A stretch of DNA of 64,000 nt from Acidihalobacter yilgarnensis (lineage in GTDB: Bacteria; Pseudomonadota; Gammaproteobacteria; DSM-5130; Acidihalobacteraceae). Position numbers and translations under genes: made by a program. Positions 36,221-61,544 of the stretch are shown piece by piece. The stretch's first letter is position 1. Every line of letters starts with the position of its first letter. The notes below the pieces were generated by a model. It searched no databases, was not told the DNA's origin, and was given only the letters and a program-made list of their open reading frames with translations. The stretch covers positions 2,384,501-2,448,500 of the forward strand of contig NZ_CP017415.1 of assembly GCF_001753245.1 (NCBI RefSeq). Reading direction: 5' to 3'.

Positions 36221-36808
36221 GGTTACAGTTCCATTGGGGTGGGTGGTGTTAACGAAGATAGATGAAAAGGAGTGAGGACACGACATACCTCGCATATAAC
36301 CATAGTAGACCTGATTGATTGTTAAAGATTCAATCATTGAAAATCCCGTAACTCAAACCGGCTAACAACCATAGCGTCCTCATATACTTGATTGATCCGC
36401 CCCAGCGTCACCATGGCGTCGATCATGGGCTCTACGAAGCGGCCAAGGCGAGAAATCCTGCGCGCTGAACAGGCGATATTCGTAATTGGACGCCCACCGA
36501 TGCGGTGGATTTCACCTTGCAACGGCAGGATACGAAGGCAGCTTGAAAAAGGGAGACGCGACAACGACCAGACCAGACCTTGACAGACGTTGTAGCATTG
36601 AGGACGATATGCCTATATCTGTTCGATAATACCAGCATAACGGCCTATCGCTCCACCACAGCACAGGGGCGTGTCGGGTTAGAGTTGTCCTTATGGGCAT
36701 GACACTCATTACGCTTGATGGTACAAACCACCCTTGCAAGCACAGGACAACCTCAAAACAACGTTCTGCCCAGGAACGGCTGGCAAGAGCACAATCGACG
36801 GCCTTCTA
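36221..36808. other. 588-bp divergent gap with no assignable gene
   Basis: This stretch separates the leftward beta-helix/hydrolase pair from the rightward ATP-grasp gene and should hold both promoters; I find no convincing -35/-10 pair. A minus-strand frame (36334-36564) ends in GRFVEPMIDAMVTLGRINQV, then YEDAMVVSRFELRDFQ, which looks protein-like, but I do not recognise it; it may be a gene relic. Confidence 0.45.
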
Positions 36809-38527
36809 ATGAACCATAGAGCGATCAACGCTGAAAAAGTGCTGGTTCTAGGCGATGACACAAGAAGCTTCCTGAGTATCGTACGGTCTTTGGGGCGCCA
36901 GGGACTGGAAGTACATGCCAGTCCATTCAACTTTCGAGCGCCCGCTCTGAAATCACGCTACATCAAGCGAATTCATTGGCTCCCTTATTATCTCGGTGAT
37001 GGAAGCGAATGGCTAAACGCCATCAAGCAACTGCTCCTGAAAGAAAGTTACAAGCTGATCATCCCGTGTGATGAACGTACGCTGCTCCCGTTGCATTGGC
37101 ACAGAGACGAGATCGGCAAGATTGCTGGCATAGCCATCCCTGCAGCCAATGGCGTTGAAATATTCTTCGACAAGCACAAAACACGCTTGCTGGCTGACTC
37201 ACTGGGCATCCCGATCGCAAAAGGTGGATATCTTTCACCCGATGACAATCTGAAACAACTCATCGCAGAAACAGGTTTGCCGATGGCAATCAAACCGACT
37301 GCGTCATACACGGCCGATCGTCTTTATAGTCGAAACAAGATCATCATTGCGTATGACGAAACAGCCGTACAAGCTGGGCTCGAAGCGGCTCGGGATCAAC
37401 CGCACATTTATGAGGGCTTCTTCCCGGGTCAAGGAGTGGGCTTATCCATCCTGGCACATAAGGGCAATGTCTTGCAGGCCTTCGAGCATCATCGTGTTCA
37501 CGAACTTCAGGGAGCCAGTTACTACCGCGTGAGCGCCTCGATCTCACCGCCCTTAATGGATGCTGTCCAAAAAATGATGCAAGCGACCCAGTACACGGGT
37601 ATCGCAATGACAGAATTCCGCATTAACCATGAAACCAGCGAATGGATTTTGCTTGAAATCAACGCACGCCCCTGGGGTTCGTTACCTCTGCCGATCGCGC
37701 TGGGCATCGACTTCCCCTTTCGCTGGTACCAACTGCTGACCCATGGTGTCGAAATACCTATGCAGAACTACCGCATCGGTATTTATGGTCGGAACCTTAT
37801 TCCAGACATCCGATATTTACGCGCGCAATTACAAGCCTTGCGTAGACAGCCACTCCGCCTGACTCGGTTTATGTTGTCAACGATCAGCGAGTATCTCCGC
37901 ATTTTTACCAAGCGCGAGGTACACGATGTATTCGTCATTGATGATCCGGCTCCGGTCTGGCAGGAGCTTCGTATCATTTTGCGCGATATCTTCACTCGCA
38001 TGTCCACTCATCTATCGGTCTGGGGGCGTTTTCGCGATCGCCGACTACTGACAAAGGCACTAGCACTACAAGATACTGCTGAGATAGCCGTGGTCTGCCA
38101 AGGCAATATCTGTCGTAGCCCCTTCGCGGGTGCATTTCTGGAAAACGCCCTGAGTCAGTCAATGACGTCTCGATTCCAAGTCAGGTCATATGGCAACCTC
38201 CCTCGAGAAGGGATCACCTCACCCGCCAACGCGTTGCAAGCAGCAAAATCTTATGGCATTGACCTCACTAGGCACCGCTCTCGCCATTTCACGCATGAAG
38301 CCGCCACACGTGCACAGCTGATTATCGTCTTCGACGAAATCAATCGTCGTTGGATAGATGAACGGTATCCTACGCTGAGGGTCCCCATTCTCTTCTTAGG
38401 CAGCTTTGGCACTCACGACAGAACAATCGCGGATCCAGATGGAGGCACCCCAACGCAGTTCGACCAGACATATCGACTCATCGCCGAGGCCACAACAGGT
38501 CTCGCTGGGCGTATTTGCAATGGATAA
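36809..38527 (+). CDS. ATP-grasp enzyme fused to a low-molecular-weight protein tyrosine phosphatase
   Basis: A 572-residue fusion. Residues ~1-390: a carboxylate-amine-ligase-like ATP-grasp protein (VLVLGDDTRSFLSIVRSLGR, KTRLLADSLGIPIAKGGYLS, GLPMAIKPTASYT, and WILLEINARPWGSLPLPI with metal ligands). Residues ~425-572: a low-molecular-weight tyrosine phosphatase with P-loop VVCQGNICRSPFA (nucleophile Cys430, Arg436) and general acid in IADPDGGT. Such phosphatases (Wzb type) normally act on tyrosine kinases of polysaccharide export. The fusion suggests a link between glycan or lipid modification and export control. The start at 36809 is preferred to TTG 36734. Overlaps the deacetylase by 8 bp. 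Confidence 0.88.
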   Translation: MNHRAINAEKVLVLGDDTRSFLSIVRSLGRQGLEVHASPFNFRAPALKSRYIKRIHWLPYYLGDGSEWLNAIKQLLLKESYKLIIPCDERTLLPLHWHRDEIGKIAGIAIPAANGVEIFFDKHKTRLLADSLGIPIAKGGYLSPDDNLKQLIAETGLPMAIKPTASYTADRLYSRNKIIIAYDETAVQAGLEAARDQPHIYEGFFPGQGVGLSILAHKGNVLQAFEHHRVHELQGASYYRVSASISPPLMDAVQKMMQATQYTGIAMTEFRINHETSEWILLEINARPWGSLPLPIALGIDFPFRWYQLLTHGVEIPMQNYRIGIYGRNLIPDIRYLRAQLQALRRQPLRLTRFMLSTISEYLRIFTKREVHDVFVIDDPAPVWQELRIILRDIFTRMSTHLSVWGRFRDRRLLTKALALQDTAEIAVVCQGNICRSPFAGAFLENALSQSMTSRFQVRSYGNLPREGITSPANALQAAKSYGIDLTRHRSRHFTHEAATRAQLIIVFDEINRRWIDERYPTLRVPILFLGSFGTHDRTIADPDGGTPTQFDQTYRLIAEATTGLAGRICNG

Positions 38528-46569: not shown

Positions 46570-47838
46570 TCAGGGAACAGCCAATTTTATTGATTCAATC
46601 TTTAGCATTGACCTCATCACGACAATGACTGCCAGCAACTGAAATGTGAAATTAAAATACGCCTGCGGCAGTGCACTGCCCGTTACGACAAATCCTACAA
46701 GACTCACCTGAAGGTAACCCGCCAAATCAAAAAGCCAACGTGCACTGGTCTGATCGCGAGACCGCTTTCGTATCAAGACCAGATTCCTCCACGCAAGCGC
46801 CAGCATCCCGATGTAAAGGCCCAACCCGACAAATCCCTGCTCTGCCAGCACCTCGAACCAGATGCTATGAATGGCTAGTGCATGATTGAATTCTGGCGGA
46901 CCATATTCAGCCCATACCTGCCGACTTGCCCACACACCGAACCCACCTCCAGTCACTGGCCTATGCAAGGCAACATTGGTTGCAAATTCCCAGGACTGCA
47001 GCCGCCCCTGGAAAGACTGCGATTGAGTTGCGGACCCCGTATCCAATCCGCGCATCCGATTAACCCACGCTTGCGGCATGAAATTAAAAACAAGCGGCAG
47101 CACAATCAAAATGCTCAGAATCACGCTGACGCGTTTGCGGCTTTTGAGGATCAGCATCGGTAGTACGACTGCCAATCCGATCAAGCCTCCTCTTGAATAA
47201 GTGCCCAATATCGAAACTATCGTCAGTAACACCAATCCCCATAACCCCCATCGCAGCCATCGCGATTGGGCATGAATCTGCAGATAGCGCATCAATGGTA
47301 GCGTCATGCACATCACCAGTGCGAATTGATTATTGTCTCCAAAAAAACTAGGACTTGGCCCATAAACATGGTAATTGCCGCCATGAATTAATGTAAAGAA
47401 ACCGCCCTTGGCCGACCAAAACCCGAACGAGATGACAAATATCCAGATCAACCCATGTAAACGTGAAGGGGTGTTCACCAGCATCATGATTGCAAAGACC
47501 ACGGCCATAATCTTTAGAAACTGAATCCAGTGTGGCGTTGCAAACCAAGGGACCATCGCGAACGCTGTACTGATGCTCGTCATGATCGCAAACAACACCA
47601 TGGTAATCGACAGGGCACTCCACTCAATACGTTTTACGCTGTGTCGATTGATCAGCATGCTAAATATCGTGACGATCGATATGATAAGAACCCAGCGAAA
47701 ATCACTGGCGAATCCATAAACCTCACGATAGATATTCATGTCGCTGAGCAACACCCAGACCAATAGGCCAATATATGGCTCGGCCAACGCCATGGGTATC
47801 GTGCCTGCCATGAACAACATAAAAACCAGGGCTCGCAT
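46570..47838 (-). CDS. O-glycosylation ligase / polymerase, exosortase A-associated type
   Basis: A 422-residue multispanning protein of the O-antigen ligase/Wzy superfamily. It has the family block with STAFAMVPWFATPHWIQFLK, the central FGDNNQFALVMCMTLPLMRY, LGTYSRGGLIGLAVVLPMLI, and the conserved periplasmic region RPVTGGGFGVW and HSIWFEVLAEQGFVGLGLYI. This arrangement is the one seen in XrtA-linked ligases (TIGR03097-like). It would polymerise repeat units or transfer glycan to protein. It is the last gene of the leftward XrtA run. Confidence 0.85.
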   Translation of the reverse strand: MRALVFMLFMAGTIPMALAEPYIGLLVWVLLSDMNIYREVYGFASDFRWVLIISIVTIFSMLINRHSVKRIEWSALSITMVLFAIMTSISTAFAMVPWFATPHWIQFLKIMAVVFAIMMLVNTPSRLHGLIWIFVISFGFWSAKGGFFTLIHGGNYHVYGPSPSFFGDNNQFALVMCMTLPLMRYLQIHAQSRWLRWGLWGLVLLTIVSILGTYSRGGLIGLAVVLPMLILKSRKRVSVILSILIVLPLVFNFMPQAWVNRMRGLDTGSATQSQSFQGRLQSWEFATNVALHRPVTGGGFGVWASRQVWAEYGPPEFNHALAIHSIWFEVLAEQGFVGLGLYIGMLALAWRNLVLIRKRSRDQTSARWLFDLAGYLQVSLVGFVVTGSALPQAYFNFTFQLLAVIVVMRSMLKIESIKLAVP

Positions 47839-47840
47839 CG

Positions 47841-48130
47841 TCAGGTTATCCAGTTTGGCGCATCGCGCAACATGATGTCATCAGCCAGAGATTTGGCCGC
47901 GTAGTTGGAGTGTCGGTAGCGCATATGGCCACCATCGAACGGGTGTGAGCCCTTAGCGCCAGCCCACACAGCAGAATCTGATGAAAGCAAATTGATCTCC
48001 CTGAGACAAAAATTGATCGCTCTGCCCGCATATCGGTGCATATCAGGTCCCCTACCCAATCCGCCAGTCGCAGCCGAATGATGGCCAATTGCACATTCTC
48101 TTGATACGGTCCATTTTACGCTGACGCACC
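47841..48130 (-). pseudogene. Decayed partial copy of the alpha/alpha-toroid gene
   Basis: Two overlapping minus-strand frames together match the last ~90 residues of the 48256-49389 protein. One frame has GCVSVKWTVS and then AKGSHPFDGGHMRYRHSNYA (intact copy: VKGSHPLDGGYMRYRYPNWA). The other supplies QLAIIRLRLADWVGDL (intact: QMAVIWLRLAELVGEP). Two frame changes are needed, so this is a relic. The sequence from about 48131 to 48255 shows no further similarity that I can see. Confidence 0.85.
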
Positions 48131-48255
48131 CCTTGCTACCGATCAACCTACTGAACCGTGAAGAATGCGAACAGATGAGGAGCGCGGACGAAGCGCTATC
48201 CGTCCCCAGCTCTCCTGCCGGGGCTTCCCGCGCAAACTGATAAGTAAACGCAGCA

Positions 48256-49389
48256 TCAGCCGATGCTTGCCGGATTGTCATGCAACATCAGCGCGTCGGC
48301 AAAAAACTTGGCGGCCCAGTTCGGATAGCGGTAGCGCATATAGCCTCCATCCAAGGGGTGCGAACCTTTGACGCCTCCGCGAATACCGAGGTTGGCGTTG
48401 TTCAAGTCCATCAGGCTCAGATTAAAGTTGATCGCCCTGTCCGCTGCGGCGGTCAATGCCGGCTCGCCGACGAGCTCCGCCAACCGCAACCAGATAACCG
48501 CCATTTGCGCATTCCCGGTTACGCAACTCCAGGACACGCTGGCGCGCCATTGACGGTCCAGCCGCCCCGGCAAGGCGCCGTCAGGGCGCTGCGCCTTGGC
48601 CACGGCTTTTGCCGCACGGACCGCGAAATCCATGCCCCGCGCATCGCCGGCTGCAACCGATACCTCGAGTATGCCGCGCAGGGCGTATGCGATCGTATGC
48701 GTCAGCGGATGCTCATTGTCCTCAAGGCAATTATTCGGCAACCAGCCATTGGCTTCCGCCTGTGTCAATGCCCAGGCGACATTTCGCTGCGCCGCAAGCA
48801 AATACCGTCCGTCTCCGATCACCTTCGCTGCCACCGCCAAGCCATAGGCCGTCCTGGTGTTGTAGGTATTGAGCCTATGCGACGCAAAGGGTGAAGCGAA
48901 TCGACGCCAAGCGCCGTCGTCGTCCTGCGCATCCACCAACCAATCGGATGCGCGAACGAGTGAATCCTGGTAACGGGGTTCTTGCGTCTCCTCGAAGGCC
49001 CTCGCCCAACCGAACAATACCTGGCCCGTATTGAAGATGGCCGGGACAACCGTGGATGCATCCATCGTTCCGGCACGCACGCCTCCGTCGGACAATTGAA
49101 TCTCCGTTTCCCAATCGGCCATGCGTATGGCACGGTCACGGAATTCGGTTCGCCCGGAATGTTCTGCATAATTGAATAATGTCGGAATGATGTAACCCGT
49201 GGTTTCCGGATATGCGCCCGCCCAGTGACGCTTTTGAAGGTCATAGTTCGCACACACACCACCACAACCGCTTTCATCCTGGGCCCGGCCGAGCCAATCG
49301 GCGATGGCGTCAAGTGCCAATCTGGCTCTCGGGGCGCGAGCGCGCGGCAGCAGGCGATCCTTCCACGCCAGCAAGCATGCGTGCGTCAT
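48256..49389 (-). CDS. Alpha/alpha-toroid (terpene-cyclase/prenyltransferase-like fold) protein of unknown function
   Basis: A 377-residue protein without signal peptide, made of repeated helix pairs each ending in Gly/Trp-rich turns: YPETTGYIIPTLFNYAEHSG, AIFNTGQVLFGWARAFEETQ, LVDAQDDDGAWRRFASPFAS, TRTAYGLAVAAKVIGDGRYL, HPLTHTIAYALRGILEVSVA, VTGNAQMAVIWLRLAELVGE. This is an (alpha/alpha)6 barrel like squalene-cyclase-fold or glycan-active toroids. A DDDG motif is present but no proven active site. Its ATG overlaps the TGA that closes the upstream ATP-grasp frame. A decayed copy of its 3' end lies just downstream. Confidence 0.8.
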   Translation of the reverse strand: MTHACLLAWKDRLLPRARAPRARLALDAIADWLGRAQDESGCGGVCANYDLQKRHWAGAYPETTGYIIPTLFNYAEHSGRTEFRDRAIRMADWETEIQLSDGGVRAGTMDASTVVPAIFNTGQVLFGWARAFEETQEPRYQDSLVRASDWLVDAQDDDGAWRRFASPFASHRLNTYNTRTAYGLAVAAKVIGDGRYLLAAQRNVAWALTQAEANGWLPNNCLEDNEHPLTHTIAYALRGILEVSVAAGDARGMDFAVRAAKAVAKAQRPDGALPGRLDRQWRASVSWSCVTGNAQMAVIWLRLAELVGEPALTAAADRAINFNLSLMDLNNANLGIRGGVKGSHPLDGGYMRYRYPNWAAKFFADALMLHDNPASIG

Positions 49390-49650
49390 TTTGTTTTACA
49401 TGCCGGGTTGAATCGATTGCGAAGCGCGACGCGCTTGCGTGCTAACCGCTGCGCTTGCGCGATCAGCCAGGGCCGCGGATCATCGAGACGCCACAAGGCA
49501 TCCCGGACCGCACCATGTTTAACCGGCCAACCCTGCACGACTTGATCGGGGTGCTCGGAGGACTGCTGGTCGGCCTGCTGGTCGCGCCAGATGATCGGCG
49601 CGTTTGAAGCACACTTCTGTGATGGCAATGCCGCCCCCGCGCCGAACAAT
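49386..49650 (-). pseudogene. Out-of-frame C-terminus of the ATP-grasp gene
   Basis: The frame LFGAGAALPSQKCASNAPII, then GWPVKHGAVRDALWRLDDPR and LIAQAQRLARKRVALRNRFN, looks coding and ends in TGA overlapping the ATG of the toroid gene (ATGA). The frame actually joined to the upstream gene is Ser/Arg-rich nonsense. So a one-base shift near 49650 has detached the natural last ~85 residues. Confidence 0.75.
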
Positions 49651-50593
49651 AGTAGGCGTAAGGCAGATTCATCCCATTCAAGGTTGCCACTTCCTCCTGA
49701 TAATCGGTACGCCCCACGGTCGGTTCGATGGCGACAAATTCGCCTGTTGTCGCATGCCGTTTGTACTCCATGCTAGCTAGACCGCACATCTCGACCCGCG
49801 TGAAAAAGTTTGCCGTGATCGCGGACAGCTCCGCGCATTCGGGTGCGGCTATGCACGACGCCGTACCACCGACGTTGGGTGGCCATGAACGAATTTTTCG
49901 GCCGACGAAGCTGGCTTCTATTTGGCCATTGACCGCCAACTGCTGCAAACAGAAATAAATATCGGAATCATTCCCAGGAATCCATTCCTGTACAACCACG
50001 TCGGGTAACACATCGAGAATACGGCCGAGCAATTCACGCGCCGTGTTGGCATCCTCCACGCGGTAGGCCTTGCGGAATCGCTGCTCATAGGCCGGTGCAT
50101 GCACCGCCGGCTTGATGATCAACGGGCAAGTCAACGCAAGCGCTGTGTCGACATCGGCCGCCTCGCGCACCTGCACGGTCCTGGGGACGCGTAAGCCCGT
50201 CTGCGCGGCAAGACGATCGAATCCTGCCTTATGCATCAGGGTATCGAGGATGCCTGCCGGCGGTAGTAGAAAACGGAACAAGGGGCTCAGTATCGCCTGG
50301 GCGGACCCCACAGTACGCACCGTCTGCTCCTGCGTCAGCACCAGCACCGGTTTTGGGCCGGCCAATCGTGTTTGAGCCAGCACCTGCAAATCGCGGATCA
50401 GCGGATCACCCTGCAGTGCGGCGATCTTCAGCGGGTGAGCATAACGCGTACGCATCTCTGGGCGCTTCGTGTCGGTGTCTGCCAGATACACCGGCACGCC
50501 GAGCATTCCCAGACTGCGCGCGACGCCGAGCCCGTTGAAACCGCTACCGAGCACCAAGGCCGGCACGGGGCCGCCCATCACTTCCCGATTCAC
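49463..50593 (-). CDS. ATP-grasp carboxylate-amine-ligase-like enzyme (C-terminus frameshifted)
   Basis: A 376-residue product: N-terminal Rossmann-like domain (PALVLGSGFNGLGVARSLGM, then PVYLADTDTKRPEMRTRYAH), ATP-grasp middle (MHKAGFDRLAAQTGLRVPRT, CPLIIKPAVHAPAYEQRFRK, VVVQEWIPGNDSDIYFCLQQ) and metal region (FVAIEPTVGRTDYQEEVATL). The same family as the N-half of the fusion at 36809. Residues after LPYAYY are out of frame; see 49386-49650. Reaction unknown; relatives join carboxylates to amines. The start overlaps the upstream GT4 stop by 4 bp. Confidence 0.82.
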   Translation of the reverse strand: MNREVMGGPVPALVLGSGFNGLGVARSLGMLGVPVYLADTDTKRPEMRTRYAHPLKIAALQGDPLIRDLQVLAQTRLAGPKPVLVLTQEQTVRTVGSAQAILSPLFRFLLPPAGILDTLMHKAGFDRLAAQTGLRVPRTVQVREAADVDTALALTCPLIIKPAVHAPAYEQRFRKAYRVEDANTARELLGRILDVLPDVVVQEWIPGNDSDIYFCLQQLAVNGQIEASFVGRKIRSWPPNVGGTASCIAAPECAELSAITANFFTRVEMCGLASMEYKRHATTGEFVAIEPTVGRTDYQEEVATLNGMNLPYAYYCSARGRHCHHRSVLQTRRSSGATSRPTSSPPSTPIKSCRVGRLNMVRSGMPCGVSMIRGPG

Positions 50594-51771
50594 GGCCGCT
50601 CCCCGGTCTGTCCCTTGGCGCGGGTTTTAAGCAAGTCTTCGGCGATCTCCAAAACACGTCTGGCGTTCGTTCGCCATGTCAGTCCCTGCTCACTGATGGT
50701 ACTCGCCGCCGCTTCGCCGAGGCGCTGGCGCAACGCCGCGTCGTTGGCCAATCGTAAGATCGCATCCGTCCTCGTCTGTGGCTGTTCGGGATCAAACAAC
50801 AGCGCATTGCGTTCGTTTGTTAGAATTTCGAGAATATTCTCGCTGGCAGGGGCCACGATGGCGCAACCCGCAGCCAGATATTCAAACAATTTGAGTGGTG
50901 ATGCATAGGGGACTACCGCCGGTTGTAATGCCACGTCGAAGGCCACCACGTAAGTAGGCACCTGTTCCCGCTCGATCACCCCGGTGAACGTAATTCGATT
51001 ACTCAGTCCCAGCTCGCGCGCACGGGATTCCAGTGGCGCCCGCGCCGGGCCATCACCCACCAGCAGGAGGTGCAGATTCAAATCAGGGTATTCGACCATC
51101 AGATCGAGAATGCCATCCAAACCATGCCATTCGCGCACGAAACCGGTAAATCCCAGTACCAGGCGTCCGTTTAGCCCCAGCTGACGCTTAGCCTCCTCGC
51201 GGCTCGGCAATCCGGCGAACTGCTCCGGTTCTATGCCATTGGGGGTCACCGTAATCCGCGTATCAGCGACAGCCTCGCGTGCAATGCGCCGCGCCAATAC
51301 CCCGGTCACGGTCAATACATGATCCGCGCCACGCCAGACATGGCGCTCGCTCCATCTAGCCAATTGATGCAGCGCGATCCCGTCGTAGCGGCCACGCTCA
51401 TCGAGAAGCGGGGCATTGACTTCAAGCAGCAGCGGGAGCGCATACCGTTGCTGGGCCCAGACCCCAGAAACAAATAACAGGTTATAGCGCTCGTAAATCA
51501 CATCCGGCCGATGCTCGGCGATCGCACGACGCAATTTCCAGTAATCCAGTACGCTGTAGGTCAACTCAAGTAATTCGTAGAACGCGCGCGGCAACCGTTT
51601 CTTCAGCTGCGAGATGAGGCCAGATTCTCCGCCGAAGGACTGATTGTCGACTGCGCCCGGCCCCACCACCACCACCTCGGCACCCTCCTGCTCGAGCGCA
51701 TGCACCATCTCAGCGATGTGCACAAATTGCCCGTCCTTCGAGCCGATTCGGTGGTGATATAACACTTTCAT
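50590..51771 (-). CDS. Family 4 glycosyltransferase
   Basis: A 393-residue GT-B enzyme: MKVLYHHRIGSKDGQFVHIA, DVIYERYNLLFVSGVWAQQR, ITVTPNGIEPEQFAGLPSRE, LVLGFTGFVREWHGLDGILD, VALQPAVVPYASPLKLFEYL and AAGCAIVAPASENILEIL, which holds the donor-site Glu residues. It is linked by 4-bp overlaps to the genes on both sides, so translation of this part of the operon is coupled. Confidence 0.92.
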   Translation of the reverse strand: MKVLYHHRIGSKDGQFVHIAEMVHALEQEGAEVVVVGPGAVDNQSFGGESGLISQLKKRLPRAFYELLELTYSVLDYWKLRRAIAEHRPDVIYERYNLLFVSGVWAQQRYALPLLLEVNAPLLDERGRYDGIALHQLARWSERHVWRGADHVLTVTGVLARRIAREAVADTRITVTPNGIEPEQFAGLPSREEAKRQLGLNGRLVLGFTGFVREWHGLDGILDLMVEYPDLNLHLLLVGDGPARAPLESRARELGLSNRITFTGVIEREQVPTYVVAFDVALQPAVVPYASPLKLFEYLAAGCAIVAPASENILEILTNERNALLFDPEQPQTRTDAILRLANDAALRQRLGEAAASTISEQGLTWRTNARRVLEIAEDLLKTRAKGQTGERP

Positions 51772-52982
51772 CCGAGCGTCTCCGAGCTATCGCAGATATG
51801 CTGGAACAGCTTAAGCTGTCCGGCACTTGTTTCGTCCCAACCAAAACGCAGTGCATAAGCCCTGACGTCATCACGAGCGGGAGGCGCCGCAAGTACCTCG
51901 GCGACGAGAGATGCCAGCGTCTCGGCATCGCGTGAGGGCGCCACTCGGCCAGCGACCGCTTCAACGAGCACCTCGCTCACGCCTTCTGCATTACAGGCGA
52001 CCACGGGCGTCCCGCAGGCCAATGATTCGAGTACCACATTCGGCATGCCTTCGCGGCTGGAGGCCAGCACCGAGACGTCCGCCGCGCTGAAATAGCGTGG
52101 CAGATGCTCATGCGCGATCGGGCCGAGAAAACGCACGCGCGCAGACAACCCCGCTTCCGCAACCTGCCGCAGCAATCCCGCCTTGAGTGGCCCCTCACCC
52201 GCAATCAACAGCGTCGCCGATTCGAGTCGGCGCATGGCGTCAATCGTGATGTGATGTCCTTTACGCTCGATCAACCCGCCGACAGACAACACCACCGCCC
52301 CCTCAAGACCGAGCTCGTTTCGTAATGTTGTCCTCGCTTCGGGTTCTGGTCGGAAGACGTCCAGATCGACGCCGTTACGCAGTACGGTAATACGTTCGCG
52401 CGCGACCCCTAAATTCACCAGATGCTCGGCAAGCGCCTTGGACACCGAAATGATGCCTCGTGCGCGTGAGGCTGCCCAGCGAATCTGCTGTCTTGGCAGC
52501 CAGTACTGTGGAATCCAGTTTACATCGGTGCCCCGTGCGGTCACCACGACCGGTTTGCCTAGCTGCTTCCCCAGCCAAACGGCAGCCACACCATCGGGAT
52601 AGAAATAGTGCGCATCGATCAAATCGAAGCCACCCTCGCGTGACGCAAGTTTGCGTAATACCGGCAACAATGCTCTGGCCATCAGCCAGGGCGCAACACT
52701 CATACCGATCTTGGGCAACACCGGATAACGCGGATGCAAAACGCGTATCCCCTGCCTGAATTCCTCTGATGGCACCGCTGCGAACCGCGCATAGTGCCCA
52801 AATCGCGGGTGAGTCCATGGAAACCAGGGCACCGGCGCCAGCACCGTGACCGTGACCGACACCCCGCCACTGGCCACCAAATGTCGCAAGCGCTCCTCGA
52901 CGAATACGCCATGACGCGGTTGCGCTGCATTGGGATACAGGCTTGAGAAACTCAGGATTCTGATCGTCCTTGCGGCATCCAT
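51768..52982 (-). CDS. Family 4 glycosyltransferase
   Basis: A 404-residue GT-B enzyme: ILSFSSLYPNAAQPRHGVFV, FDLIDAHYFYPDGVAAVWLG, VVTARGTDVNWIPQY, ITVLRNGVDLDVFRPEPEAR, VVLSVGGLIERKGHHITIDA and SSREGMPNVVLESLACGTPV with the E-x7-E donor motif. The N-terminal DAHYFYPDG and GTD motifs are common in exopolysaccharide GT4 enzymes. It starts 9 bp after the truncated sulfotransferase. Confidence 0.93.
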   Translation of the reverse strand: MDAARTIRILSFSSLYPNAAQPRHGVFVEERLRHLVASGGVSVTVTVLAPVPWFPWTHPRFGHYARFAAVPSEEFRQGIRVLHPRYPVLPKIGMSVAPWLMARALLPVLRKLASREGGFDLIDAHYFYPDGVAAVWLGKQLGKPVVVTARGTDVNWIPQYWLPRQQIRWAASRARGIISVSKALAEHLVNLGVARERITVLRNGVDLDVFRPEPEARTTLRNELGLEGAVVLSVGGLIERKGHHITIDAMRRLESATLLIAGEGPLKAGLLRQVAEAGLSARVRFLGPIAHEHLPRYFSAADVSVLASSREGMPNVVLESLACGTPVVACNAEGVSEVLVEAVAGRVAPSRDAETLASLVAEVLAAPPARDDVRAYALRFGWDETSAGQLKLFQHICDSSETLG

Positions 52983-52991
52983 GAGATCGAA

Positions 52992-53651
52992 TTAGCCGGT
53001 CACGTCGGCGGCGAACCCTTTCTCGCCGAGCGGACTTTGAGCCACCAGACTCAAACCGTGTCGACGCCGGGCAGGCCCGGTCGCCAACAGCATCTCCAGT
53101 AAGCCGTAATCGTCACTGGAGGGTCGATTATCGACGAGGGTACGGGCCGCCTCACCGCGCAACACCGAGGCGATGTGGTCGCACGGGTGACGCAGTAGAT
53201 GAATCGCAACCGCATCCTTGAGGACATCGAGCAGGATACCCCATCGCCCCAGCGACTCGGCGCTTGTCCAGACAATTCGCCCATGCCCACGACGCTCGGC
53301 ACGGGGCAAAAATGGCACAGGGAAACCACTGCTCACACGTCCGACAAATTTGGCACCCAGGATGCCGGCACGCTTCAGTGCAAAGGCTGGCGCGAAGCGA
53401 TAATCCTTTGGGACTAGCGGCATTTTGCCAACAATCTTGGACTTGCGCATGTTCGGCATATCAGTGAACAACGGATGAATTTCTGCGCTATCAACGTCGG
53501 CATCCGCCAGCGCCGGAAACAAGGGCATTGACAAGCGCCGCACGCTATCAGGCTCATGCCGGTCAAGCGTTTGCGGGTGGCTATCCAAAATCTTGCCCAT
53601 CCAGGTGGTCCCTGAACGTGTCAATCCAAACAGTGAAATTGGCGGCATCAT
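52992..53651 (-). CDS. Sulfotransferase-like protein, truncated
   Basis: The 219-residue product has the PAPS loop ISLFGLTRSGTTWMGKILDS, then HEPDSVRRLSMPLF, and the 3'-phosphate region AIHLLRHPCDHIASVLRGEA. It stops soon after RRHGLSL, where family members normally continue for ~80-100 residues. No continuation is visible in any frame before the next gene starts at 52982. It is probably a shortened, perhaps inactive, sulfotransferase. Between the amidotransferase and a GT4 gene in the XrtA run. Confidence 0.75.
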   Translation of the reverse strand: MMPPISLFGLTRSGTTWMGKILDSHPQTLDRHEPDSVRRLSMPLFPALADADVDSAEIHPLFTDMPNMRKSKIVGKMPLVPKDYRFAPAFALKRAGILGAKFVGRVSSGFPVPFLPRAERRGHGRIVWTSAESLGRWGILLDVLKDAVAIHLLRHPCDHIASVLRGEAARTLVDNRPSSDDYGLLEMLLATGPARRRHGLSLVAQSPLGEKGFAADVTG

Positions 53652-53688: not shown

Positions 53689-55629
53689 TTAAACTAACGG
53701 GCGCGCAAGCGTGTCGTGCGATGCCGTATAGGCCGGATAACGTACCAGATGCTCCAATGAACTGTTCAGCATCAACAAACTCCACAGCACGGTGCCGTGG
53801 TCACTCATGCCCGTATGATGTTCACGCCAGACGCATCGTATCTCATCCATATCGAACAAGCCTGAATCCGCCAGCGCAGAATTTTGAAGAACCTTTTCGA
53901 AAGGTTCCGTCAGGGGGCCCCGGAACCATTGTTTCAGCGGCACGGAAAACCCCTGCTTACGTCGATAGATAATCTCGCTCGGCAGATCGCGTTCCAATGC
54001 ACGCTTGAGAAGATACTTGCTCTCGCCCCGATGAATCTTGCGAGCGGTCGGCAACGACATGCCCCATTCGACCACACGATGGTCAAGCAGCGGTACGCGT
54101 ACCTCCAGGGCATGCGCCATGCTCGCGCGATCGACCTTGGTGAGAATGTCTCCAGGCAACCAGGTTTTGAGATCGAGATACTGGGCAATTCGCAACGGGT
54201 CGTCCGTCGTGGCATGCCGTGCATGTTCACGGAACAGCTCCAATGCGCTATAGCCCTGTAGTTCGCTGCGAAAGCGCGTGCTATAAAGCCGCTGGCGCAC
54301 GGTGTGAGGCGTCGCGGATACCGTGTGAAAATAGGCCTCGACCGTGTCCCGCGCCAAGGCCTGCAACGTGGTCTTCGCACGTAAAGCTTGAGGCGCCCAG
54401 TCCGCCTTCGGATACCATCGCCCGAGTGTCCCAAACAGGCGTTTTCGCAACCCCAGTGGTAGCAGCTCGCGCACACGACTTTCACTCAGGTGCAAGCGGT
54501 AACGACGGTAGCCGCCGAATATTTCGTCACCACCATCGCCAGACAGTGCCACCTTGACACGCCGCCGCGCGAGCTCGCAGACCGCGTAGGTCGGCAGTGC
54601 AGAACTATCTGCGAAAGGTGCGTCGTAAACCTCCGCCAGGCGATCGAACATTTCATGACCGGCCGCGTGCACGATAAGTTCGTCATGATCCGTCGAGAAG
54701 TGTTTCGCCACCTGACGAGAATAAGGCGATTCATCGTAAGCTGGGTCATCAAAACCAATCGCACAAGTCTGCACGGCGCTAGGCATCGTCTCGGACATCA
54801 GTGCGACCACCGCACTGGAATCCACACCGCCGGAAAGAAAGGCGCCAAGCGGCACGTCTGCAATCAGGCGTAGACGCACGGCATCGGCCAGACGCTCGCG
54901 CAGTGATTCCATCAGCGATTGCTCGTCGCCATCATGCTGCTTGCTCAGATCGACATCCCAATACCGCTGAGCGACCGGCTGCATCTCTCCTGGCCGGAAA
55001 CAAAGCGTATGCCCGGCCGGCAATGTATTCACCTGTTTGAGAATAGAGCGCGGATCAGGCACATAACCCAGTGCCAGATATTCCTCGATAGCCAGTGGAT
55101 CGAGGTCGCGCGCCAATCCAGGATGTACGAGCAACGCCTTGAGTTCTGATCCGAATATGAAATCGCCTTCTCGGGTAAAACCGTAATACAGCGGCTTGAT
55201 ACCCAGACGGTCTCGCACCAGATGCAGCTCGCGTGTTTCATTGTCCCATAATGCAAAGGCGAACATCCCGATGAAACGGTCGATACAGGCACGGCCCCAT
55301 GCGCGCCAGGCCTGCAGGAGCACCTCGGTATCCGAATGGCCCTCAAAGGAGTAGCCCAATTCACTGAGTTCCTGCATCAGCTCTCGGAAATTGTAGATCT
55401 CACCGTTATAGCTCAGTACCCAGCGGCCTTCACCACCGACCATCGGTTGGCGACCATGCGTTAAATCGATGATGGAAAGCCTACGATGAACGATACCGAT
55501 GCCGACGCCTGTATAGATACCCGCCTGATCCGGGCCACGATGTGCGAGTGATTGCCCCATGCACTCAAGAAGTGCTCGATCAGGAATATGATCGAACGCG
55601 CCGCACACGATACCTGCGATTCCGCACAC
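53689..55629 (-). CDS. Asparagine synthase-like amidotransferase, exosortase A-associated
   Basis: A 646-residue class II glutamine amidotransferase: catalytic Cys2 (MCGIAGIVCGAF), the glutaminase pocket (LAHRGPDQAG, VLSYNGEIYNFRELM), and a synthetase domain with the ATP loop AFLSGGVDSSAVVALMSETM and ALSGDGGDEIFGGYRRYRLH. AsnB-like proteins are standard members of XrtA loci, where they are thought to amidate a polysaccharide component rather than make asparagine; that is inference from context. It starts 2 bp after the upstream sugar transferase stop. Confidence 0.92.
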   Translation of the reverse strand: MCGIAGIVCGAFDHIPDRALLECMGQSLAHRGPDQAGIYTGVGIGIVHRRLSIIDLTHGRQPMVGGEGRWVLSYNGEIYNFRELMQELSELGYSFEGHSDTEVLLQAWRAWGRACIDRFIGMFAFALWDNETRELHLVRDRLGIKPLYYGFTREGDFIFGSELKALLVHPGLARDLDPLAIEEYLALGYVPDPRSILKQVNTLPAGHTLCFRPGEMQPVAQRYWDVDLSKQHDGDEQSLMESLRERLADAVRLRLIADVPLGAFLSGGVDSSAVVALMSETMPSAVQTCAIGFDDPAYDESPYSRQVAKHFSTDHDELIVHAAGHEMFDRLAEVYDAPFADSSALPTYAVCELARRRVKVALSGDGGDEIFGGYRRYRLHLSESRVRELLPLGLRKRLFGTLGRWYPKADWAPQALRAKTTLQALARDTVEAYFHTVSATPHTVRQRLYSTRFRSELQGYSALELFREHARHATTDDPLRIAQYLDLKTWLPGDILTKVDRASMAHALEVRVPLLDHRVVEWGMSLPTARKIHRGESKYLLKRALERDLPSEIIYRRKQGFSVPLKQWFRGPLTEPFEKVLQNSALADSGLFDMDEIRCVWREHHTGMSDHGTVLWSLLMLNSSLEHLVRYPAYTASHDTLARPLV

Positions 55630-55631
55630 GT

Positions 55632-56846
55632 CTACGACACCCCTCTGTGATCAACCCTAGTCGGTCTGAAATTCAGTACATTGCCGTACAGCCTGCGATA
55701 TTGTTCCACCATCGCGTCAAGTGAAAATTCCGACCGCATCCGTAGACGACCCGCGGCACCATGCGCCCGCGCGAGCTTGATATCGCGCCAGTAACACGAC
55801 ATCGAATCGGCCAAGGCATTGACATCCCCCACCTCGACCAACATTCCCGTCTCAGCGTCGACAACAACTTCTGGATTACCACCGACACGGCTCGCAATGA
55901 CCGGCAGCGCACTTGCCATGGCCTCAAGCACAGCGATCGATACACCTTCGTTCTCAGAAGGCAGTGCAAACACATCAAAAGAGGCAAGCAATTCAGGCAC
56001 ATCCGTTCGGGCGCCGGTGAGTAGCACCGCGTGCTCGAGTTGCCTCGCGCGGATCAAACGCTCAAGTCGAGGACGTTCTGGACCTTCACCGACGATGAGC
56101 AAGCGAATTTTGCCATTTTCATCATGACACTCAATCAGGCGAGCAAACGCCTCTATAAGCGTCGTCTGCGCCTTGACCGGATCGAGTCTGGCGACCGTCC
56201 CAATCACAAAATCATCCATAGCCAAGCCGAGAGATTCTCGGGTACTGTTTCTCACTGATTGATCGTGTATAAATCGACTAGGATCGACGCCGTTGTGGAT
56301 ACAGACGAGTTTTTTTGCCTTGATCTCGACCACATCACGAAGCCATAACTCCAGATCTCGGGATACCGCCACAAATCGATCGACGAACGGGCGCATCAAT
56401 TTTCGCAGCCTGATATATTTCGTCGGAACGGCTTCCTTCCCCACTAACCAGCCATGCTCAGAATGCACGACTCGGCATCCTGCCAGACGCGCGATCGGCG
56501 CCATATCCAGCGCAGGCAAATTATAGGTATTCACCAGCGCGGGACTTAACCGACGCAGATACTTAAACAAACGCCAATAGCTGGGTAAATCTTTCCCTGC
56601 ACGCTTGTTCAGCGTGTAGACAACAACGTCTTCAGACTGAATACGATCCCTGAAATCCGTATAGCCAGCAAGACAAATTACCGCATGTCGATAATCAACA
56701 TTGCCCATCCGATTGATCAAATTGACTAATACGGTTTCCATGCCACCGAAATCCAGTCGATACACAACGTGCGCAATTAATGGCCGCTGATCTGGCGATA
56801 CGGCTGAGCCGACATCAATAACAGGTGCAGGTCCAGGTGGATTCAT
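55632..56846 (-). CDS. Sugar transferase, PEP-CTERM/XrtA-associated (TIGR03088-like GT4)
   Basis: A 404-residue GT-B enzyme: IAHVVYRLDFGGMETVLVNL (Gly-rich acceptor loop), ALVNTYNLPALDMAPIARLA, CRVVHSEHGW, LVCIHNGVDPSRFIHDQ, IGTVARLDPVKAQTTLIEAF and ALPSENEGVSIAVLEAMASA, with the donor-site glutamates. The start at 56846 overlaps the exosortase stop (ATGA), which selects it over 56897. Position right after xrtA matches the second sugar transferase of XrtA loci. Confidence 0.92.
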   Translation of the reverse strand: MNPPGPAPVIDVGSAVSPDQRPLIAHVVYRLDFGGMETVLVNLINRMGNVDYRHAVICLAGYTDFRDRIQSEDVVVYTLNKRAGKDLPSYWRLFKYLRRLSPALVNTYNLPALDMAPIARLAGCRVVHSEHGWLVGKEAVPTKYIRLRKLMRPFVDRFVAVSRDLELWLRDVVEIKAKKLVCIHNGVDPSRFIHDQSVRNSTRESLGLAMDDFVIGTVARLDPVKAQTTLIEAFARLIECHDENGKIRLLIVGEGPERPRLERLIRARQLEHAVLLTGARTDVPELLASFDVFALPSENEGVSIAVLEAMASALPVIASRVGGNPEVVVDAETGMLVEVGDVNALADSMSCYWRDIKLARAHGAAGRLRMRSEFSLDAMVEQYRRLYGNVLNFRPTRVDHRGVS

Positions 56847-58363
56847 CCACTCAAACCCTGACTCGGATACGCCGTGCCAGAATGGTTTCCTGCCCAATAC
56901 GCTTTGGTAAATGCCAGGAGCGCGGCTTCAGCAGATTTTGAATCGGCGCGCACCGGTGCAGACAAGATGATCAATCGGGTCACAATGGGCTTACCAAGAA
57001 CGAAATTCTCCAACTGCAATAACTTAACTGCAATCAATCCAGAAGCAGACACGCCGTTCACTTCATACCAATACCACATCAGGCGGTGCGCATTGCTACT
57101 GATCAACCAAGTTTGATGAACGGAGTACGGAATAGGAATACCTGATAGCGCATCATGTGATCTTTGTTGGACTGACCACTGGGTGCTGTCGTAACGGCGA
57201 TTCCCGATCATGAAAAGCTTATGATCATGCATGGGTCTTCCCGCATAATCCACGGCCACAAGATTTACGTTGATAACTCCATCGCCATAGGTAGACATGA
57301 CGACTTGATCCGGACGTTTAAATCGTGCGCCGAGTGGATTTGCCTGCGTCAAAAGCACATGCCAACCGTCGAATTTCGTGTTGATCATTGGCCGAGTCGC
57401 CGGTGACTTAGCAGCATAAGTCGATAACCAGATCATTCCGGGCCCACACAATAAAAACACAGCACCCAACGGCAATGCTTTCAATATGGATGATCGCCTT
57501 CCAAAATAGACGGGGAACTGCACTGTGGCAAACTCTAGTGGTGACTCTCGCCAGAACCAACCGGCACCGAACAGAAGAACCAGCACAGTCCCAAAGAATT
57601 GCCAGCCGAATATCAAGTGATCAGTGCCACTGGCATACTCGACGCCAAATACCTCACCGATAACCACAGTAAAGTAAACCCTCAAACTATTGGCTACGAT
57701 TGGGACCACGAATGCCGCGACCATGAATGCCGCACGACGACGCCAACTGGTATAAAATAAATTCGCGTATAATGCCCCCAATGCAAGGGAAGCCAGGAAA
57801 AACTTAATACCGCTACAGGCATCGGCCACATGCCAGGTTGCAACCTCAGTTTCAATTAAAACGCCATGCAGATAGGCGACATACCCAGTATGTTGCAGTA
57901 ACCAGACACTCATCGCCGCCGTGATATGCTGCAAAATAGTCGTGACATGCGCTACGGGCCATGGGAATCCAAAAAACAGATATAACAGGGGAAAGATCAG
58001 TGCGCGAAAGACACTGGTGCCATAAACGGTCAAAACAAGTGCAGGCAAAAGCGCAATTACCGAAAACTGCTGCACCAGTTGCACACCAATAATCGTACCT
58101 ACCGCCCACATCAGACTAAAAACCAAGACCAACAGGGCACCATAACCACTCACATGGAATGACAAACCCTGCGTCACGGTTCGGCGCAGGTAAATCAGGA
58201 AAACACTGATGGGCAATATAAAAAAAGCATATTGAAAAGTGCCGTCACCACTCCAAACGCCAACCATTCTCGATAGCGTCTCCCAAAACAACGCAAGATA
58301 TATCAGTATCAGCGTCCCCAATACGAAGTGCGATCTGACTCTATCGATTTGCATGACGTTCAC
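56843..58363 (-). CDS. xrtA: Exosortase A fused to an EpsI domain
   Basis: A 506-residue integral membrane protein. Residues ~10-275 form the eight-helix exosortase with the complete catalytic triad: Cys183 in VADACSGIKFFL, Arg228 in ANSLRVYF and His249 in GTDHLIFGWQF. Exosortase A processes PEP-CTERM tails at the inner membrane. Residues ~320-505 are an EpsI domain (FDGWHVLLTQANPLGARFKR, INVNLVAVDYAGRPMHDHKL, RLMWYWYEVNGVSASG). Fusion to EpsI is a known arrangement in XrtA loci. No PEP-CTERM substrate is encoded nearby. Confidence 0.95.
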   Translation of the reverse strand: MNVMQIDRVRSHFVLGTLILIYLALFWETLSRMVGVWSGDGTFQYAFFILPISVFLIYLRRTVTQGLSFHVSGYGALLVLVFSLMWAVGTIIGVQLVQQFSVIALLPALVLTVYGTSVFRALIFPLLYLFFGFPWPVAHVTTILQHITAAMSVWLLQHTGYVAYLHGVLIETEVATWHVADACSGIKFFLASLALGALYANLFYTSWRRRAAFMVAAFVVPIVANSLRVYFTVVIGEVFGVEYASGTDHLIFGWQFFGTVLVLLFGAGWFWRESPLEFATVQFPVYFGRRSSILKALPLGAVFLLCGPGMIWLSTYAAKSPATRPMINTKFDGWHVLLTQANPLGARFKRPDQVVMSTYGDGVINVNLVAVDYAGRPMHDHKLFMIGNRRYDSTQWSVQQRSHDALSGIPIPYSVHQTWLISSNAHRLMWYWYEVNGVSASGLIAVKLLQLENFVLGKPIVTRLIILSAPVRADSKSAEAALLAFTKAYWAGNHSGTAYPSQGLSG

Positions 58364-58384: not shown

Positions 58385-59617
58385 TCAAACCGCACGGCGC
58401 GTATCGCTAAGGGATACGCCTTCATCACCGATTAGCGCATGGACAAGCTTATCGATCGAAGCGGGCCAATGAAACCGATCCGCAATCGTCTGTCGTCGAT
58501 CGTCAGCGAGCCCATCACCCGTCTGTAGATAGAATAAAACCGCATTGGCAAACTCATGTGACATATTGCTTCGACTCCCGAATGTACTCGAGAAGGCGCC
58601 AATTCCCTCCCAGGCGGCAGAAGTACCCACCACAGGCTTTCCCATCGCCAAGGCTTCAAGCACCTTGTTCTGTATGCCTCTGGCAACACGTAATGGTGCA
58701 CATATCGCGTTGGCATGTGCCAGGTATGGGCGCACATCGGGTACGCGCCCGGTCACGGTCACACCCGACAACTGATTCAAAGCGCTAACCGCAGAAACAG
58801 GCTTTTGTCCGACCACATAGAATTTCGCGGAGGGCAGTTGATCGATCACTAAGGGCCAGACATGTCTGCAAAACCAGACGACGCCATCCACATTGGCCTG
58901 ATAGTTCATCGCGCCGGTGAACACCAGATTCGCATCATCGGTCACAAATGGATTTTCATATACGAGATCCGGGTCAAAGTAATCCACATCAACACCATTG
59001 GTGATTGCATGGATCCGATTCGAATACTGCGGGTTGCGATCACGAAACAATTCCGCTTCGTCTTCAGACACCAAAACAGAGGCATCATACAATGCTGCCA
59101 AAGCACGCTCTTCTGTCGCGAGTGTGCGCGCTTCGCGTTTGTAGATCATGCGCATTGGAAAAGGTGCCTGACTGGCGTATTGACGCCATTTCTCCGAATC
59201 CATGTCGACAAAATCCATGACTCGCCGCATTAAACGAGGGGATGCCGACAAACCATAGCGACCCATTGCAGATGAAAATGCGTAAACAAATCCAATATCA
59301 TTATTTTCAATAGTCATGGATACCCAGCGCGCAAAGCCCGAATGCTCATAACGCGATAGAGAAAGGGGGGCACCCGATATCGCTGCGGGCAAACCACGCA
59401 ACTGACCCAACCAAGGATTTACGACAGGCAAGTAAACACTAGCGCAATATTCACGCAATTTATCTATATATTGAATATCTTCACGATCATCAATAAAAGC
59501 ACCCAGATGGATCCTGAAGTGTTTGGACAGCCCATCCAAAACATGAAATGAACGGATCTTGTCTCCCTTATCGGGAGGATAAGGGATTCTGTGCGCCAGA
59601 AACAACAAGTCCCGCAT
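58385..59617 (-). CDS. Sugar transferase, PEP-CTERM/XrtA-associated (TIGR03087-like GT4)
   Basis: A 410-residue GT-B enzyme: MRDLLFLAHRIPYPPDKGDK, IRSFHVLDGLSKHFRIHLGA, FVDMDSEKWRQYASQAPFPM, IHAITNGVDVDYFDPD, NLVFTGAMNYQANVDGVVWF and VARGIQNKVLEALAMGKPVV. The motif NRIPYPPDKGDK-like start and FVDVDSEKW are diagnostic of the first sugar transferase of XrtA loci. The ATG at 59617 shares its A with the TAA of the FemAB gene (TAATG), which decides the start; 59683 is rejected. Confidence 0.93.
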   Translation of the reverse strand: MRDLLFLAHRIPYPPDKGDKIRSFHVLDGLSKHFRIHLGAFIDDREDIQYIDKLREYCASVYLPVVNPWLGQLRGLPAAISGAPLSLSRYEHSGFARWVSMTIENNDIGFVYAFSSAMGRYGLSASPRLMRRVMDFVDMDSEKWRQYASQAPFPMRMIYKREARTLATEERALAALYDASVLVSEDEAELFRDRNPQYSNRIHAITNGVDVDYFDPDLVYENPFVTDDANLVFTGAMNYQANVDGVVWFCRHVWPLVIDQLPSAKFYVVGQKPVSAVSALNQLSGVTVTGRVPDVRPYLAHANAICAPLRVARGIQNKVLEALAMGKPVVGTSAAWEGIGAFSSTFGSRSNMSHEFANAVLFYLQTGDGLADDRRQTIADRFHWPASIDKLVHALIGDEGVSLSDTRRAV

Positions 59618-60648
59618 TAACCCAGACTCCTCGCGAGCGGAGGGCCCATCACTTGACTGACCGACAACGGTAATTTTTTCCATATTTTTATAAAATAAAT
59701 ATATTTCTTATTAACAGGACTCACATCAGGCATTTCATCAATTTTAATAAGATCATATTGATAATGTAATGGTTGTGGGACAAAACCCCAATGCATTTTG
59801 TACTTATAGGATCCGGAATCAAGCTTACTACGGCCAAAGTCGAACACACGAACACCCTTGTCGACCGCGTGTCGCATAAGTTCCCAGTACATCAAATCAT
59901 AAGCCTTCAAATCACGGGCAGCCGAACTCCCACCGCCGTAATATGGCAAAACCTCATCACGGAAATAAAAACTCATAACAGAACTGACCGGCACACCCAG
60001 ATGCCTAACCGTGAAAATCTCAACTTCTCCCGGAAACACATCCATCAATATCTGAGTGTAGCGCTTTGAAAAAACGGGCGTGCCCAGATTGCGAACGCTT
60101 TCAGAATAAACCCGATAGAAATCGTCTACATTAGCATCCACACCAACCTCAAGATTGGCATTCAATCCTTTACGAATAACGGCGCGTTGTTTTCTCGGTA
60201 TGGATTTCATATTTTCATCATGTGATTCGGATAACGCTCGGCGGAAGGTTACATATAACGCTTTTGTAGGCCAATCCTTTTGGGTAGAGTTTATTTGACG
60301 CAACTCCATATATTCAACACCCATTCTTCGTGCCATTTCGCTAGCATTTTCGAGTAACGCGTCCGACGTCTCGGAATCGACTGCCAACACGCCGCCATAA
60401 ACACAAAATGGGGTCGATATGAGCGCATCATGAAATAATCGGCTTTTGATTCTCGCCAATGGCAACACACCCACCACGGCACCCTCACGCTCAGCTAGCA
60501 GGTAGTAGCTTTTATGGTTGAATGCGCGCTCAAGTACATCACGCCAGCCGAATTTGTGAAAAAAAGTCGCCTCCGGGTGGCCGGCGACGAACCGGTCCCA
60601 CGGCGCACGATCTGATTCAATAACCAACCTGACATTCATCTCATACAA
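59617..60648 (-). CDS. FemAB-like acyltransferase, XrtA-associated
   Basis: A 343-residue double-GNAT protein of the FemAB type linked to XrtA loci (TIGR03019-like): WDRFVAGHPEATFFHKFGWR, YYLLAEREGAVVGVLPLARI, CVYGGVLAVDSETSDALLEN, MKSIPRKQRAVIRKGLNANL, VLPYYGGGSSAARDLKAYDL and GVRVFDFGRSKLDSGSYKYK. FemAB enzymes transfer amino acids from aminoacyl-tRNA; in this setting the acceptor may be the polysaccharide. Coupled to the next gene by TAATG. The alternative start is 60639. Confidence 0.92.
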   Translation of the reverse strand: MYEMNVRLVIESDRAPWDRFVAGHPEATFFHKFGWRDVLERAFNHKSYYLLAEREGAVVGVLPLARIKSRLFHDALISTPFCVYGGVLAVDSETSDALLENASEMARRMGVEYMELRQINSTQKDWPTKALYVTFRRALSESHDENMKSIPRKQRAVIRKGLNANLEVGVDANVDDFYRVYSESVRNLGTPVFSKRYTQILMDVFPGEVEIFTVRHLGVPVSSVMSFYFRDEVLPYYGGGSSAARDLKAYDLMYWELMRHAVDKGVRVFDFGRSKLDSGSYKYKMHWGFVPQPLHYQYDLIKIDEMPDVSPVNKKYIYFIKIWKKLPLSVSQVMGPPLARSLG

Positions 60649-60692: not shown

Positions 60693-61544
60693 TCACTGAC
60701 GCGCAATCAATGGGGCAAAAACGCGATCCATTCGGTCCCATGTGAAATCAGACGCCAATCGCGTAAGCCGGTCTTCCATTCGCGTTAAATTCAAATAGTG
60801 TCTGAATCGGCTTCTCTTATTCAGTCCGCTGATACGAGGCTGATTTGGATCAATTTCCCAGGGATGAAAATAGAATACAGCTGCTTGATGATCATAGTTA
60901 TTAACGCGCCTGATAGCCCATCGACTAAATACATATGGGTAAAGCCGAAAATAACCGCCGCCACCACAAGGGAATTTCTTTCCAAAAGCATTGACCGTTG
61001 TAACGGGGATCTCAATCAGATTATGCTCTCTGGGTTTGAAAGCGAATCGAGGCGCCTCGGGCATTCCATAATGATCGTGTTTGATTGGATAGATACTTGA
61101 ACTATACGTAAATCCAGCTGAAGCCAATTCATCAAGGGCCCATAAGTTGTCTCTACCAATCGAATAACTGGGTGCGCGGTAACCCAACACTGCTTGCCCT
61201 GAAATAGCCTCCAATAATTGCTTGGACTGTGCTACATCTGCGCGAAACCGCTTGGGATCAAAATTGGTCACACGCTGGTGATTCATGCCATGGCTTGCAA
61301 TTTCATGACCGGCTTCTGATATCTTTACAACCATGGAGGGTAGACGCGTAGCAAGCCAGCCGAGCGTAAAGAAGGTGGCCTTGACATCATGATCATCGAA
61401 TAGCTGAAGGATGCGCTCAACGTTTTTCTCGACTCTAAGCGCGATGTTCGGCCAAGAGTTTCGAAGGACAACATTCTCAAATGCAGAAACCTGAAAATAG
61501 TCTTCAACATCCACACTCATTGCATTGACTATTACGTTACTCAC
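60693..61544 (-). CDS. Polysaccharide deacetylase, XrtA-associated
   Basis: A 283-residue NodB-type deacetylase of the XrtA type (TIGR03006-like): NAMSVDVEDYFQVSAFE with metal-site Asp residues, VKATFFTLGWLATRLPSMVV, GHEIASHGMNHQRVTNFDPK (His-x-His type ligands), YRAPSYSIGRDNLWALDELA and AAVFYFHPWEIDPNQPRI. No signal peptide, as usual for this subfamily. It would remove N-acetyl groups from a glycan precursor. 44 bp before FemAB. Confidence 0.95.
   Translation of the reverse strand: MSNVIVNAMSVDVEDYFQVSAFENVVLRNSWPNIALRVEKNVERILQLFDDHDVKATFFTLGWLATRLPSMVVKISEAGHEIASHGMNHQRVTNFDPKRFRADVAQSKQLLEAISGQAVLGYRAPSYSIGRDNLWALDELASAGFTYSSSIYPIKHDHYGMPEAPRFAFKPREHNLIEIPVTTVNAFGKKFPCGGGGYFRLYPYVFSRWAIRRVNNYDHQAAVFYFHPWEIDPNQPRISGLNKRSRFRHYLNLTRMEDRLTRLASDFTWDRMDRVFAPLIARQ

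Follow-up and report, generated by a model that had tools for sequence, protein, structure and literature searches.

Two adjacent genes of Acidihalobacter yilgarnensis, one for an ATP-grasp protein resembling carboxylate-amine ligases and one for an (alpha/alpha)6 toroid protein, lie within an XrtA (PEP-CTERM) exopolysaccharide operon; the superfamilies and the type of operon are known, but the pairing is undescribed. We propose, with moderate confidence, that the two genes belong to a cytoplasmic module that tailors exopolysaccharide precursors, wherein the toroid acts on a sugar and an exchangeable partner enzyme, here the ATP-grasp, forms an amide. The proposal draws on features seen directly, namely co-conservation, adjacency, fold, partner exchange and the complete set of active-site residues in the ATP-grasp family. 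No description of the pair was found in the literature searched, in agreement with an initial sequence-only reading of the region, which knew of no described system with this set.

The window analyzed here is a 64,000-nucleotide stretch of the A. yilgarnensis genome (NZ_CP017415.1, 2,384,501–2,448,500), to which all coordinates refer unless another locus is named. The operon runs on the minus strand. It opens with an XrtA-associated ATPase (61607–62707), which scores just below the cut-off of TIGR03015 (294.9 versus 324.5 bits), followed by an XrtA system polysaccharide deacetylase (60693–61544; TIGR03006), a FemAB family XrtA-associated protein (59617–60648; TIGR03019), a glycosyltransferase, exosortase A (XrtA) with an EpsI-like C-terminal domain (56843–58363; TIGR03109 and TIGR02914), a probable glycosyltransferase (55632–56897), assigned by its similarity to other glycosyltransferases and by synteny, its position being the same in relatives, and the AsnB-like amidotransferase of XrtA systems (53689–55629; TIGR03108, 933 bits). 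Then come a truncated sulfotransferase (52992–53651; Pfam), two GT4-like glycosyltransferases recognized by Pfam (51768–52982 and 50590–51771), the ATP-grasp gene (49463–50593 as the open frame is sequenced, 376 residues), whose start overlaps the stop of the preceding glycosyltransferase gene, the toroid gene (48256–49389, 377 residues), and a Wzy/O-antigen-ligase-like, exosortase A system-associated protein (PEP_O_lig_1, 46570–47838; TIGR03097). With TIGR03109, TIGR03019, TIGR03108, TIGR03006 and TIGR03097 all above cut-off, the genes belong to an XrtA/PEP-CTERM operon, and the earlier placement of the pair together with FemAB, an AsnB-like amidotransferase and a deacetylase stands. Whereas XrtA, FemAB, amidotransferase, deacetylase, ATPase and O-ligase all have models in this system, no NCBIfam model of it matches the ATP-grasp or the toroid above cut-off. 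The two genes occupy the downstream part of the operon, which is variable between genomes.

Co-conservation, the point on which the sequence-only reading had staked its module, holds within the clade of the window's toroid. In a tree of 86 toroids, inferred by a quick method and containing several long branches, the same ATP-grasp gene adjoins the toroid in 22 of the 24 rows of this clade (SH-aLRT 99), the two exceptions being L067, which lies at a contig end, and L080. The stop and start codons overlap in 13 of 16 relatives' pairs, as read by eye. Of 80 toroid loci taken from named genomes, 16 have this ATP-grasp, in 15 cases at a distance of no more than 1.5 kb. At the family level, both genes are adjacent in four of five genomes; the fifth has neither gene and no XrtA match. 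Among 274 genomes of the class, about seven carry a strong ATP-grasp match and four of these also carry the toroid (hypergeometric P 5e-4, a value that ignores kinship); the two genes are adjacent in all four, with the order reversed in G104 and G221. Furthermore, the order glycosyltransferase-glycosyltransferase-ATP-grasp-toroid-O-ligase is retained in the family relatives and, slightly altered, in Rhodanobacter, Oleiagrimonas and Salinisphaera. On the other hand, three genomes (G107, G068 and G213) have the ATP-grasp without the toroid, and the toroid is also found without the ATP-grasp and outside XrtA operons, haloarchaea included. Thus, the pair is co-conserved in its clade but is not an obligate unit, each gene also occurring alone. 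Separately, two toroid genes lie close together in each of three loci (L071, L087 and L126).

Outside the window's clade, the toroid keeps other company. Its neighbors there are a CapK/PaaK-like ligase with a formyltransferase, an AAC(3)-like acyltransferase, or a FemAB/GNAT-like protein, and the partner labels require 21 changes on the toroid tree, as opposed to a mean of 55.8 when they are shuffled. Counting as partners the ATP-grasp, CapK/PaaK-like, AMP ligase, AAC(3)-like, FemAB/GNAT-like and formyltransferase enzymes, 81 of 96 lie within 1.5 kb of the toroid; the selection of these clusters for their frequency within 6 kb makes them look more tightly grouped than they are, so the evidence lies in the steepness of the distribution rather than in the raw count. 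No partner enzyme is present in 11 of the 80 loci. As examples, the toroid of G249 sits in a CapK-toroid-formyltransferase locus; in a locus from Planctomycetota (L109, 6992–8938), an amino-acid adenylation enzyme scoring above the curated cut-off of TIGR01733 is found near the toroid; and in its nearest neighbor in the toroid tree, also from Planctomycetota (L085, 7070–9857), this place is taken by an AMP-binding enzyme with a GNAT protein after it. In haloarchaea, the toroid has wecB, nucleotide-sugar dehydrogenase, sulfatase or alginate-lyase-family genes in its vicinity, or else other ATP-grasp genes, and one haloarchaeal plasmid (L162, 7142–10029) has an alginate-lyase-family protein, the toroid, a sulfatase, wecB and a nucleotide-sugar dehydrogenase together. 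Genes for ManNAcA synthesis were considered as a general companion of the toroid and rejected, wecB/wecC-like genes being rare near toroids outside haloarchaea; in the window genome, a wecB-type gene and nucleotide-sugar dehydrogenases are located far from the XrtA operon. Because other toroid clades use a different enzyme for the amide-forming step, we infer that the toroid stays constant while the activating or transferring enzyme is exchanged. The amide-bond theme of the sequence-only reading is therefore plausible, as it fits the replacement of the ATP-grasp by other enzymes that activate acids or transfer acyl groups; the toroid itself is not bound to the ATP-grasp.

The AlphaFold model of the ATP-grasp protein from a relative (L059; pLDDT 90) adopts the ATP-grasp fold, with Z scores of 20–24 to PurK, GAR synthetase and PylC, and K117, K156, E198, E272 and E286 are invariant in 16 sequences including that of the window. 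The fold, at Z 21–24, and the conserved lysines, glutamates and metal-site residues are shared with PurK/PurT/PylC-like ligases, whereas the identity is only 12–17% and an EPTxxRTD motif stands where ExN is usual. No Pfam ATP-grasp family matched the protein above cut-off, phmmer against PDB sequences found no match for either the ATP-grasp or the toroid, and PHROGs gave none. The genome's sole match to the circularly permuted ATP-grasp family (PF04174) is located elsewhere.

The AlphaFold2 model of the toroid (pLDDT 94.1, pTM 0.91) is an (alpha/alpha)6 barrel, with cellobiose 2-epimerase (Z 33.3) and unsaturated glucuronyl hydrolase (Z 33.1) as best fold matches and drimenyl diphosphate synthase at about 28. 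It resembles AGE-type epimerases and GH88 unsaturated glucuronyl hydrolases over 320–348 residues (Z 30–33) but shares only 9–17% identity with them, and their catalytic residues, two histidines in AGE epimerases and an aspartate in GH88, do not all appear to be conserved. Across 59 toroid sequences covering all partner types, W56, E62, Y66, H231, Y235, C289, Q295, Y350 and K361 are invariant. The polar residues E62, Y66, H231, Y235, C289, Q295 and K361 are mostly located at the starts of alternate helices, which suggests a single conserved pocket irrespective of the partner.

How the two proteins might work together can be outlined as follows. The toroid has no hydrophobic segment by hydropathy and is therefore probably cytoplasmic; most ATP-grasp sequences likewise have no clear one, two of 16 being slightly over the threshold. 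The target would likely be a cytoplasmic nucleotide- or lipid-linked precursor, before export. The toroid would be a carbohydrate-active protein that binds, and probably acts chemically on, a particular sugar of this precursor. The ATP-grasp would activate a carboxylate with ATP and join it to an amine, the most likely product being a uronic acid whose carboxyl carries an amino acid, or else an amino sugar bearing a carboxylic acid. Both proteins would act on the same residue, the amide being formed where the toroid acts on or holds the sugar. In this outline, the reactions of both proteins, the substrate, the shared target residue and the amino acid or acyl group attached are what we infer. 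Against it stand the toroid-less ATP-grasp homologues, the partner-less toroid loci, the frameshifted gene of the window genome (see below), and the fact that fold similarity alone does not give the toroid a function, since the model is also similar to drimenyl diphosphate synthase, and family members hit squalene cyclase, LanC and GH127 profiles.

Indeed, toroid members match C5-epimerase, GH88, GH127, pectate lyase, squalene cyclase and LanC profiles, so that the fold does not reveal the precise reaction, and narrower or different roles have to be weighed. A specific form of the tailoring proposal would have the toroid act as a uronate C5-epimerase, or lyase-like enzyme, on a nucleotide- or lipid-linked aminouronic acid, whose carboxyl the ATP-grasp would amidate with glycine or another amino acid to give a residue resembling GulNAcA-Gly in Vibrio VPS. 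We regard this assignment as unlikely, even though sugar epimerases and glucuronyl hydrolases head the fold matches and, in haloarchaea, wecB and a nucleotide-sugar dehydrogenase are found in the neighborhood of the toroid, once with an alginate-lyase-family gene right beside it. The D-glucuronyl C5-epimerase profile (C5-epim_C) matches 28 of the 59 members (best E 1.1e-8), fewer than the GH127, pectate lyase and squalene cyclase profiles do, and the wecB and dehydrogenase genes are rare in other toroid loci and distant from the operon in the window genome. A residue of the predicted kind does exist, since V. cholerae VPS has GulNAcA amide-linked to glycine, for which C5 inversion of ManNAcA is proposed (PMC3901696).

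Just as improbable, to our judgment, is a toroid that merely binds or scaffolds while the ATP-grasp or its replacement does the whole modification. In its favor, no catalytic pair of a known toroid family could be assigned here: only one histidine (H231) is invariant in the 59 sequences where AGE epimerases have two, and no invariant aspartate was found among them of the kind known from GH88. However, the invariance of E62, Y66, H231, Y235, C289, Q295, Y350 and K361 across partner types exceeds what a scaffold usually needs. We give very little credence to a terpene or prenyl cyclase with a lipid substrate and no connection to sugar modification, although SQHop_cyclase_C matches the window toroid above cut-off as well as 54 of the 59 members, and deposited plasmid annotations call the toroid a 'prenyltransferase/squalene oxidase repeat-containing protein'. 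That match reflects the repeated QxxDGxW structural motif, and the catalytic DxDD motif of terpene cyclases is absent from the invariant columns of the 59 sequences. Moreover, the protein is a single 377-residue barrel, the majority of the genomic contexts inspected are loci for polysaccharides, and CAZyme folds outrank terpene cyclases in the structure matches. With no such catalytic motif and with sugar enzymes as nearest folds, the concern raised at the outset that the toroid might be a cyclase of an unrelated pathway is largely relieved.

A further alternative concerns the state of the locus in the window genome. Starting at a GTG (50593), the ATP-grasp open frame tracks the family alignment, made with 15 relatives, up to NLPYAYYCS and then diverges; its last ~55 residues are out of frame and it stops at 49463, 74 bases before the toroid gene. 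The conserved C-terminus, from PIIWRDQQ to a final KTK, picks up in another frame (49386–49625, minus strand), as supported by frame translation, by the family profile (positions 322–394) and by tblastn, in which a relative's C-terminus matches 49622–49434 with 44% identity over 63 residues. It ends with a TGA overlapping the ATG of the toroid. Judged from the sequence, the gene is thus frameshifted near 49.62–49.64 kb, and the window genome has no intact ATP-grasp reading frame; the gene is uninterrupted in a genus relative (L157) and two family relatives (L137 and L159). The ATGA stop/start overlap described earlier (49389–49386) is present but, because of the shift, it is right for the original frame only and not for the open frame. 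The frameshift is either a true lesion or a sequencing error, and given it the module may be inactive in this genome.

It is possible, though we lean somewhat against it, that in the window genome the pair is decaying, with the ATP-grasp a pseudogene and the locus under rearrangement; such decay would be compatible with the tailoring proposal for the relatives. Besides the frameshift, decay is favored by the sulfotransferase of the same operon, which is missing the final third present in its Rhodanobacter and Salinisphaera counterparts at this place in the operon (in tblastn, only the first two thirds of the relatives' proteins are covered). The stretch between toroid and O-ligase (47856–48131, minus strand), identified by tblastn, genome search and DNA alignment, points the same way: here the 3′ end of a further toroid gene survives (40% protein identity, E 9e-15) as a C-terminal remnant, the trace of a gene duplication or cassette replacement. 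Furthermore, one genus relative has no toroid, no ATP-grasp and no XrtA. Disagreeing with decay, however, every ATP-grasp active-site residue checked lies upstream of the frameshift and is intact, the toroid gene is intact, and the post-shift sequence still matches relatives, so the change would be recent or a sequencing error.

XrtA-type exopolysaccharides are widespread. A toroid that is conserved, while its carboxylate-activating or acyl-transferring partners differ from clade to clade, yields a testable prediction of how they are decorated, as well as candidate genes for uronic acids amidated with amino acids, of which Vibrio VPS has an example. More broadly, we would tentatively suggest, and with more doubt than belief, that bacteria and archaea share a widespread polysaccharide-tailoring system in which the toroid is fixed and different amide- or acyl-forming enzymes plug in, its ATP-grasp version attaching amino acids to an (epimerized) aminouronic acid. 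If so, the pair would suggest candidate enzymes for a step of a kind unassigned in VPS-like polymers. VPS, too, is an exopolysaccharide in which an aminouronic acid carries an amide-linked amino acid; the available part of its description does not name the inversion and glycine-addition enzymes (PMC3901696). A pneumococcal Rgg/SHP surface-polysaccharide cluster also combines a carboxylate-amine ligase, an AMP-binding enzyme and a UDP-aminouronate dehydrogenase in one locus; this likeness is by the description of its genes, and no toroid is named in the table that lists them (PMC5597970).

The sequence-only reading had also taken the gene at 36809 for another ATP-grasp of this family, and this did not survive comparison. 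The family profile matches it weakly and over the first 150 residues only (E 3.6e-7), and the domain make-up differs: the gene (36734–38527, plus strand) encodes an ATP-grasp fused to a low-molecular-weight phosphotyrosine phosphatase. By sequence comparison, it is a distant superfamily member of a different family. A conserved 375-residue gene follows, and the two are also adjacent in a genus relative (L158), ~20 kb from the toroid operon. Elsewhere in the window, a gene for a GH42-like glycoside hydrolase (33337–35307, minus strand) adjoins one for a repeat-containing, probably secreted protein (35279–36337).
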